A DNA stretch of 23,056 nucleotides from Campylobacterales bacterium (lineage in GTDB: Bacteria; Campylobacterota; Campylobacteria; Campylobacterales; Hydrogenimonadaceae): positions 1 to 23,056 of the forward strand of contig JALSPH010000266.1 in NCBI GenBank assembly GCA_026986055.1, written 5' to 3'. Of the stretch, positions 2,699 to 19,839 are shown piece after piece. The position numbers and the translations under genes are program-made. Below the pieces are notes generated by a model. It saw nothing but the letters and a program-made list of their open reading frames with translations. It did not search any database and was not told where the DNA came from. The first letter of the stretch is position 1, and each line of letters opens with the position of its first letter.

Positions 2699-2904
2699 GG
2701 CTTTGCCGGCGGGTTGCAAAGATGTTGTAAAAGCGCGGCTTGGCTGCGCGTGGGCCCGCTGCCGAAGCGGACACAGCGTCAGCGTAGCTTCGACGGCTTT
2801 GCCGGCGGGTTGCAAAGATGTTGTAAAAGCGCGGCTTGGCTGCGCGTGGGCCCGCTGCCGAAGCGGACACAGCGTCAGCGTAGCTTCGACGGCTTTGCCG
2901 GCGG
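2699..2904. repeat. Perfect 96-bp direct tandem repeat in the tuf leader
   Basis: Two identical 96-base copies occupy 2699-2794 and 2795-2890. The first 14 bases of a third (GGCTTTGCCGGCGG) follow at 2891-2904 before the sequence diverges. The unit is far more GC-rich than its AT-rich flanks and contains several short inverted repeats: CCGCT/AGCGG at 2756-2770, CGAAGC/GCTTCG at 2763-2768 and 2787-2792, and GCGC/GCGC around GGCTTGGCT. Because 96 is a multiple of 3, frames stay open through both copies on both strands. I regard these as artefacts of the repeat, not genes. The whole block lies between the tuf promoter and the tuf start codon. I see no transposase and no clear target-site duplication. 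Confidence 0.95.
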
Positions 2905-2970: not shown

Positions 2971-4170
2971 ATGGCTAAGGAAAAATTCGAACGAACCAAG
3001 CCGCACGTTAACATCGGTACTATCGGTCACGTTGACCACGGTAAAACTACACTGACTGCAGCGATCACTGCAGTTCTAGCAACAAAAGGGGATGCCGAGC
3101 TGATGGATTACGATCAGATCGACAACGCTCCTGAAGAGCGCGAGCGCGGTATTACGATCGCTACATCACACGTTGAGTACGAAACTGACAAGCGCCACTA
3201 TGCACACGTTGACTGCCCCGGCCACGCCGACTACGTCAAAAACATGATCACAGGTGCTGCTCAGATGGACGGCGCTATTCTTGTTGTTTCTGCAGCGGAT
3301 GGCCCTATGCCTCAGACTCGCGAGCATATCCTTCTTTCAAGACAGGTTGGCGTTCCTTACATCGTCGTATTCATGAACAAAGCGGATATGGTCGACGATG
3401 AAGAGCTTCTCGAGCTTGTAGAGATGGAGATTCGCGAACTTCTCAGCGAGTATGACTTCCCAGGAGACGACACCCCGGTTATCGCAGGATCTGCACTTAA
3501 AGCGCTTGAAGAGGCGAAAGCGGGACAAATCGGCGAGTGGAGCGAAAAGATTCTAGAGCTGATGAATGCGGTTGACGAGTATATTCCTACGCCTGAGCGC
3601 GAAACGGACAAAGATTTCCTTATGCCGATCGAAGACGTATTCTCAATTTCCGGTCGTGGTACGGTCGTTACCGGACGTATCGAGCGCGGTAAAGTTTGCG
3701 TTGGAGACGAGATAGAAATCGTAGGTATCAGAGATACTCAAAAAACTACGGTAACAGGCGTAGAGATGTTCAGAAAAGAGATGGAGTGCGGTGAAGCAGG
3801 CGATAACTGCGGCGTTCTTCTTCGCGGTACGAAGAAAGAGGATGTCGAGCGCGGTATGGTTCTTTGTAAGCCAGGCTCAATCACTCCTCACACTAAGTTC
3901 GAAGCAGAAATCTACGTACTTACAAAAGAGGAAGGTGGACGACATACTCCATTCTTCAACGGATATCGCCCGCAGTTCTACGTACGTACTACAGACGTTA
4001 CAGGTGCGATCACTCTTCCTGAAGGTACAGAGATGGTTATGCCCGGCGACAACGTCAAGATCACTGCAGAGCTTATCGCTCCGATCGCTATGGAAGAGGG
4101 AACTCGCTTCGCGATTCGTGAAGGCGGACGTACAGTCGGCGCAGGTGTCGTTTCCAAGATCCTTGCATAA
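2971..4170 (+). CDS. tuf: Translation elongation factor EF-Tu
   Basis: 399 residues, the usual EF-Tu length. It is the GTPase that delivers aminoacyl-tRNA to the ribosomal A site. The G domain shows the P-loop GHVDHGKT (residues 19-26), the effector-loop region RGITI, DCPGH (81-85) with the catalytic His85, and NKAD (136-139) for guanine specificity. Beta-barrel domains 2 and 3 follow ([32 protein letters not shown] at the C-terminus). The ribosome-binding site GGAGG at 2960-2964 fits the ATG at 2971. It is the only tuf in the window and stands before rpmG and secE-nusG, in the position of E. coli tufB. There is no second copy after fusA. Confidence 0.98.
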
Positions 4171-19778: not shown

Positions 19779-19783
19779 CCTCA

Positions 19784-19839
19784 CCTAAACCCCAAACCCC
19801 AAACCCCAAAACCTAAAACCTAAAACCTGAAAATTAAAA
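19784..19839. repeat. Telomere-like C-rich heptamer array
   Basis: Eight consecutive 7-base units in strict phase: CCTAAAC, CCCAAAC, CCCAAAC, CCCAAAA, CCTAAAA, CCTAAAA, CCTGAAA, ATTAAAA, decaying toward the 3' end. On the - strand this contains three GGGG runs separated by TTT, then GG runs, so a G-quadruplex is possible there. It begins 6 bases after tRNA-Arg and ends 34 bases before the next promoter box. Confidence 0.9.

Follow-up and report, generated by a model that had tools for sequence, protein, structure and literature searches.

Tandem copies of a dispersed structured element as a probable origin of the array in a Campylobacterales tuf leader

What is a perfect, GC-rich tandem array doing between the putative promoter and the start codon of the gene for elongation factor Tu, and where did it come from? 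The question is raised by a contig of a Campylobacterales bacterium of the family Hydrogenimonadaceae (assembly GCA_026986055.1, contig JALSPH010000266.1), of which the first 23,056 nucleotides were analyzed as a whole and are called here the window. The reading that we favor, with a probability of about two in three, is that the array consists of two tandem copies of a dispersed, non-autonomous element that is tolerated at the tips of RNA hairpins and that became duplicated at tuf. A preliminary description of the locus had offered a mobile intergenic repeat, a regulatory RNA and a source of copy-number variation as possible explanations, and each of them holds in part: the repeat is dispersed between genes, it has a conserved RNA structure, and its copy number differs between species.

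The tuf leader hairpin and the array in its loop

The array occupies positions 2699-2904 of the forward strand, on which all features of the leader lie. Tandem Repeats Finder describes it as a repeat of period 96 with 2.1 copies, 100% matches and no indels, and a script check of the 206 bases found the 96-base unit repeated as two units plus 14 bases, exactly the duplication that had been claimed. Its GC content also departs from that of the flanks, as had been stated (65.5% against 48.2% over the whole window, and likewise in a 100-base GC profile). In the frame of R1, a covariance model of the element, copy 1 lies at 2733-2815 (hairpin H1 at 2733-2749, core at 2750-2815, with the terminal hairpin extending into the spacer; 71.9 bits) and the complete copy 2 at 2829-2911 (H1 at 2829-2845, core at 2846-2911; 85.1 bits), while positions 2699-2732, which equal positions 1-34 of the unit, are probably the remnant of another unit, its 3' part with the 5' end cut. 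The two 96-base units are identical, and they agree at 91 of 96 positions rather than fully in the frame of the model because copy 1 ends in spacer. The window also holds a short, degenerate tandem repeat of ACCTAAA at 19783-19832 (7.1 copies, 88% matches).

The open reading frame at 2971-4170 (399 aa, starting with ATG), the product of which we take to be elongation factor Tu, has counterparts of 96-99% protein identity in 13 other genomes of the same genus, and four tRNA genes lie directly upstream of its leader. As had been proposed, the array sits between an extended -10 element and this start codon at 2971. The putative promoter element, TGGTATAAT at 2635-2643, is present in all 12 same-genus leaders compared, and transcription would start near 2650. 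A consensus scan of 2560-2980 for TTGACA and TATAAT separated by 16-18 bases found no such promoter and no intrinsic terminator, which leaves the extended -10 as the only promoter candidate seen; a TTGACA does occur at 2622-2627 and is not a normal -35, since it precedes the -10 by just 10 bases.

The array is enclosed by two complementary arms of 16 base pairs, AGGGTGCCTCTGTAAA at 2661-2676 and TTTGCAGAGGTACCCT at 2927-2942, and the Shine-Dalgarno sequence GGAGGA, which presumably serves tuf, lies outside the hairpin at 2960-2965. The 18 genomes of the genus contain 14 recognized tuf genes, with 12 complete leaders and two cut by contig ends; in all 12, AGGGTGCCTCTGTAAA comes after the promoter and TTTGCAGAGGTACCCT further downstream, without one differing base in either arm, and a 15-base part of the 5' arm is exact in 13 of the 18 genomes. 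For comparison, 72 of the 399 third codon positions of tuf (18%) are invariant over 13 species. The expectation of a structured leader is in line with the fold of 2660-2973, which at -152.3 kcal/mol is far more stable than its shuffles (-113.75 ± 4.23 kcal/mol; z -9.1), and in three leaders folded together with their copies the pairing probability of the arms is 0.91-1.0 per pair, by which the conserved stem is predicted to close around the array all the same, with the Shine-Dalgarno sequence outside. The hairpin matched no Rfam family. A scan of 397 genomes of the class for the paired arms, which allowed loops of 15-45 bases and is blind to long loops such as that of the window's own genome, found the pattern in two, both of the same genus, and two one-mismatch matches to the 5' arm elsewhere had no matching 3' arm within the next 220 bases. 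The constraint on the sequence of the arms far exceeds what base pairing requires, and makes the hairpin a candidate for the control of EF-Tu; as to its role, one may guess at an RNase III site, at binding of EF-Tu or at a structure that protects the 5' end.

The content of the hairpin tip varies from species to species. The copy-number variation that had been suggested is found between species: among the 13 with a readable 5' arm, nine have no element at tuf (eight with a short loop, and G011 with another insert) and four have it in one, two, two and at least three copies. The lower bound comes from G001, where one contig ends with the 5' arm and three tandem copies, another begins with the 3' arm and tuf, and the two contigs probably meet. 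Measured between 11-base cores of the arms, the arm-to-arm distance is 24-37 in eight species, 107 in G011, 113 in G014, 257 in G002 and 258 in the window's genome, and arms that pair at such varied distances would point to an RNA structure rather than to a DNA site for a protein. The tip is perhaps a hot spot for insertion, perhaps simply neutral. A tree of tuf DNA had no strongly supported fork; species relations are thus weakly resolved by tuf alone, and one insertion at tuf cannot be distinguished from several. The insert of G011 (locus L039) is about 97 bases long and had no model match listed there.

The copy number in the window is that of a single draft assembly (281 contigs, 83% complete), and units that are exactly identical could be one true unit duplicated by the assembler. 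Such an artefact is hard to reconcile with G002, a one-contig genome in which two diverged copies (66 of 97 positions identical) occupy the same site, or with the arrays that the element forms elsewhere in G003 and G008 (the latter also a one-contig genome). In addition, short-read assembly collapses such units more often than it multiplies them, and we regard an assembly origin of the second unit as very improbable. Divergence between units is also seen in the array of G001, with identities of 92/97, 76/97 and 80/96.

A dispersed element with a conserved structure

The unit of the array recurs in the same genome and in its relatives. The window's genome has six matches by BLAST and 11 by R1, the window's own included in both counts. 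By BLAST, matches were found in 16 of 60 genomes with its own counted, namely 15 of 18 of the same genus and one of another family, and R1 found up to 16 matches in each of 17 of the 18. Far from being absent from every related genome, a possibility that the preliminary description had raised, the repeat matches 14 of the 17 other genomes of the genus by BLAST and 16 of the 17 by R1 (G010 and G011 with a single weak match each; G015 with none). Within the class, in a sample of 150 genomes scanned with stricter filters, R1 matched 17: four of the same genus (f1), nine of f16 and four of f20, where the figures for f16 and f20 are carriers found and not a share of carriers, and where membership is by model match for f16 and by alignment for f1 and f20. 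The f20 carriers have 20-34 matches each. No match to the repeat was present in a plasmid collection, and titles and abstract openings of the literature, in the part of the search results shown, contained no description of it in these bacteria. As far as these literature searches show, the element family, its occurrence across three families of the order and its seat in the tuf hairpin beside empty sister species are new, whereas dispersed palindromic elements, MITEs and inserts in RNase P RNA are a kind already known.

Aligned copies share the conserved core GGGCCCGCTGCCGAAGCGGACACAGCGTCAGCGTAG, flanked on either side by hairpins that vary; the element is about 80-95 nt long and its core about 66-95 nt. 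On the strand shown, the fold consists of hairpin H1, a two-part H2, a mini-hairpin of two pairs, and a long H3 introduced by CGTAG, a motif present before H3 in most of 33 copies, in which the last A and G are invariant and the base before them is T, C or A. The structure was drawn by eye from aligned copies and then counted on these 33, which were retained from 46 extracted and 41 distinct and usable copies; the paired share of 87.9% of pair cells, against 73.2% in shuffles and 34-46% when the structure was slid along the alignment, is raised by the omission of partial, divergent and near-duplicate copies. In this alignment 18 of 27 pairs have changed on both sides, with a covariation of 0.423 against 0.163.

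Since the structure was derived from those 33 copies, the copies of f20 are the test that counts. Thirty-five of the 43 f20 matches were aligned (six were not 66 bases long, one was overlooked and one was weak), and one of them, L173, which lies at the same place as L021, was already among the 33. In these 35 copies 91.8% of the pair cells are paired, against 32-58% when slid, and double changes affect 11 of 21 pairs and a total of 68 cells, where shuffles give 21.6 cells; the covariation score is 0.349 against 0.211 when shuffled and at most 0.143 when slid. The stems are AU-rich in f20 and GC-rich in the window's genus, and the 66-base consensus sequences of the two are the same at 43 positions. 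Across the pair columns there are 130 G·U cells against 36 A·C, with G·U in excess in 28 columns and A·C in 8; these cells are not independent, and the asymmetry is as expected if one strand folds, either as RNA or as single-stranded DNA. Rfam had no family over the element at gathering score, and for eight loci searched up to an E value of 5 it returned nothing except the RNase P RNA that surrounds the copy in L033.

Sites, orientation and means of spread

Copies lie mostly between genes: 113 of 124 sites are clear of called genes, and the 11 that overlap a called open reading frame are possibly miscalls. Between co-directed genes, copies are sense rather than antisense in a ratio of 49:10 in the window's genus and 17:8 in f20 (66:18 in total) with a codon-scored gene caller, and of 36:16 for both families with a cruder one; both callers are home-made, and the codon-scored one missed rpmJ. 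After merging of orthologous sites the ratios are 22:5 in the window's genus (p 0.0015) and 16:8 in f20 (p 0.15), where eight further sites are convergent and orientation is not clearly biased. Some copies are antisense to their neighbors or lie between divergent genes. These counts omit six weak or cut matches of 116 in one scan and the six lowest of another; four distinct sites in the window's genus and one in f20 have no orientation call, and copies in RNase P RNA stand outside the orientation count. In the window's genus 18 of 27 distinct sense sites lie within 35 nt of a gene start (19 when rpmJ is read directly), a closeness that alone is no proof of a leader role, since intergenic gaps are short. 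At several genes the spacing recurs: the core ends 13 nt before a start reading MKVRPSVKKMCDKCK, presumably rpmJ, in nine of ten grouped loci, 19-22 nt before a start reading MELF.YKKPIPLM, which we take to be secF, in seven of nine, and 9-12 nt before the start of a gene divergent from bioD in eight of eight. The grouping of sites assigned at least L214 to the secF group in spite of its different gene, so that distinct sites are somewhat undercounted, and L006 of that group is cut by a contig end.

The other RNA that contains the element is that of RNase P, which was found in 16 of the 18 genomes of the genus with lengths of about 324-465, and in six of these 16 species R1 matches inside it. 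The relevant tip belongs to the helix that follows ACAGAAA..ACC, which we take to be P12; it was readable by motif search in 13 of the 16, and the insertion site could be read in four of the six (the exceptions being G003 and G013). The tip measures 8 bases in G010 and G015, 115-149 bases with the element in G009, G016, G008 and G012, and 26-92 bases without a model match in seven others, the window's genome included, so that it accepts other sequence too. In the RNase P RNA of the window's genome (L167) a 92-base AT-rich stretch without a model match takes the place that the element has in sister species, at the helix tip. At two loci the element precedes a tmRNA gene, with its core ending about 10 bases short of the gene and not inside it. 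The genes, at 1605-1978 in L014 and 1606-1979 in L015, belong to two species and encode the tag ANNTNYRPAYAYAA. The flanks of 84 sites were no more complementary than controls (p 0.67), and placement at a hairpin tip therefore holds for tuf and RNase P RNA and not for the copies in general.

A structure conserved in two families, with unpaired bases that hardly vary, and the selection on one strand that the excess of G·U over A·C suggests, are what one would look for in a cis-regulatory RNA, whether a protein-binding leader or something like a riboswitch, and two copies at tuf could then sharpen or strengthen the control of EF-Tu. The fixed distances to rpmJ, secF and one further gene start across many species fit such a role, as do the tandem arrays at several sites and the fact that the element shares its orientation with the downstream gene at 26 of the 31 distinct sites called in the window's genus. 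The downstream genes, however, have no evident common pathway, some copies face the wrong way for a leader or separate divergent genes, the orientation in f20 with its convergent sites is not clearly biased, copies within RNase P RNA cannot work as a leader there, and most species with a readable arm lack the element at tuf itself. We consider a regulatory RNA a doubtful explanation of the array.

For a non-autonomous element tolerated where it lands, the flanks in f20 provide a candidate means of spread. Of 42 copies in genomes G036 and G158, 21 have both inverted ends, TAGACTTCTTGCAAAACTC and GAGTTCTGCAAGAACTCTA (17 of 19 positions complementary; up to six mismatches allowed per end), in units with a modal length of 138 bases, the closest pair being 97.1% identical at two loci; most complete units start and end in TA, which may be either the target or part of the ends. 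In G036 there are also eight pairs of these ends, one base different, 917-919 bases apart. None of the four pairs that were read encloses the element, and the one in which genes were sought has two open reading frames that are the halves of an IS5-family transposase, with HTH_Tnp_4 and DDE_Tnp_4 above their cut-offs and the NCBIfam IS5 models below theirs for each half. From their ends, the f20 copies so bounded look like MITEs of this IS5-family element of G036. In the window's genus no inverted ends were seen in the flanks of the element copies, and, as compared by eye, IS5-type ends are not near any R1 match. Away from the element, G008, G002 and G013 have pairs of such ends spaced by about 270 bases, possibly another MITE family. 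A further MITE-like family in f20 is seen at three loci of G158 (L245, L246 and L247), where units about 166-168 bases long have the ends TAGACTTCTTTCATAACCC and lack the element.

A different mobilizing enzyme could be suspected from the CGTAG that introduces H3, which recalls the GTAG foot that precedes the hairpin of REP repeats, according to the available part of the source (PMC2817692), and in that case a Y1 tyrosine transposase (RAYT) would have moved the element as a REP or BIME. Genes with the Y1_Tnp domain do occur in eight of the 18 genomes of the genus and in seven of the 12 f16 and f20 carriers searched. Nevertheless, within the stretches examined around 19 of the 23 Y1_Tnp matches, R1 matched at none of the 19 loci up to an E value of 1; moreover, neither G000 nor the one-contig genome G016 has a Y1 gene, both with copies of the element, and G010 has three Y1 genes but one weak copy. 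To a RAYT origin we accordingly give almost no credence.

Origin of the tuf array and relation to known systems

Comparison between genomes shows, at the level of sequence, a family of elements with a conserved structure, its seat at the hairpin tips of tuf and RNase P RNA, and differences in copy number between species. The history that we propose begins with an older, sequence-constrained tuf leader hairpin, into the loop of which an element would have inserted in the ancestor of some of the species. It could have persisted there if the tip of the loop is nearly neutral, as it may well be, because closure of the stem is retained, with the ribosome-binding site outside it. Slippage or unequal recombination would then produce tandem copies and homogenize them, which would result in identical copies here and diverged ones in another species. 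In f20 the element has likely spread by mobilization in trans through an IS5-type transposase, given that IS ends bound units of about 138 bp around half of the copies sampled. The effect of the array on EF-Tu output is probably small, and sister species with empty, one-copy, two-copy and at least three-copy leaders make the choice between neutrality and tuning directly testable.

Certain observations go beyond what a passenger tolerated at hairpin tips would explain. The sense bias and the closeness to start codons in the window's genus exceed the needs of a neutral passenger, conservation of the core in three families is unusual for a passive one, and for the copies in the window's genus neither inverted ends nor, as compared by eye, an IS partner was found. 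The element can be a passenger and a regulator in turn, spreading first and being put to use later. A bolder proposal along this line, and in our opinion an unlikely one, is that of a mobile cis-acting RNA which would be a transposon passenger in one family and a domesticated, shared leader element in another. If that were true, a single trans-acting factor or ligand could co-regulate the RNAs that carry the element at the tips of tuf and RNase P RNA and before rpmJ, secF and tmRNA, which would join protein synthesis to tRNA processing, with the tandem copy number as a dial. Returning to the non-autonomous element duplicated at tuf, what gives it a wider interest is that one conserved RNA structure is found in three families of the order as a dispersed repeat, as a MITE-like passenger and as a tip insert in two important RNAs.

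Several known systems can be compared with it. In Escherichia coli, tufB lies behind tRNA genes and has a leader for which control by EF-Tu has been proposed. The arrangement described here is similar in having tuf with its leader behind tRNA genes, and differs in a hairpin that was seen in this genus only, in a short-loop search, and that has no Rfam family match. The intervening sequences of 23S rRNA are extra sequence at helix tips of an essential RNA, with the helix unbroken; the present element is likewise placed at a helix tip without breaking the helix but, unlike them, it resides in the tuf leader and in RNase P RNA and comes from one dispersed family. With REP and BIME repeats, as the available part of the source describes them (PMC2817692), the element has in common that it is dispersed and has a hairpin after GTAG, in contrast to which it has no association with a Y1 transposase and its core is far longer than one REP hairpin. 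BrickBuilt of Porphyromonas gingivalis, in the available part of its description, is an IS5-related, intergenic MITE in which tandem repeats of a 23-nt unit are possible (PMC4596501). The f20 copies resemble it in that half of those examined have ends related to the IS5 family; unlike BrickBuilt, it is a whole structured RNA that is repeated, the copies in the window have no inverted ends, and the core is common to three families. A precedent is offered by the Rickettsia palindromic elements, which the available part of the source, a review, describes as 105-146 bp long with 12-bp terminal inverted repeats, located between genes, inside the genes for RNase P RNA (M1 RNA) and tmRNA, and also in frame inside proteins (PMC2229807). 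The copies of the window's genus differ from them in having no inverted ends, where those elements have inverted repeats of about 12 bp, and the likeness is one of description and not of sequence: both are short, dispersed and structured, with many intergenic copies and some inside RNase P RNA.
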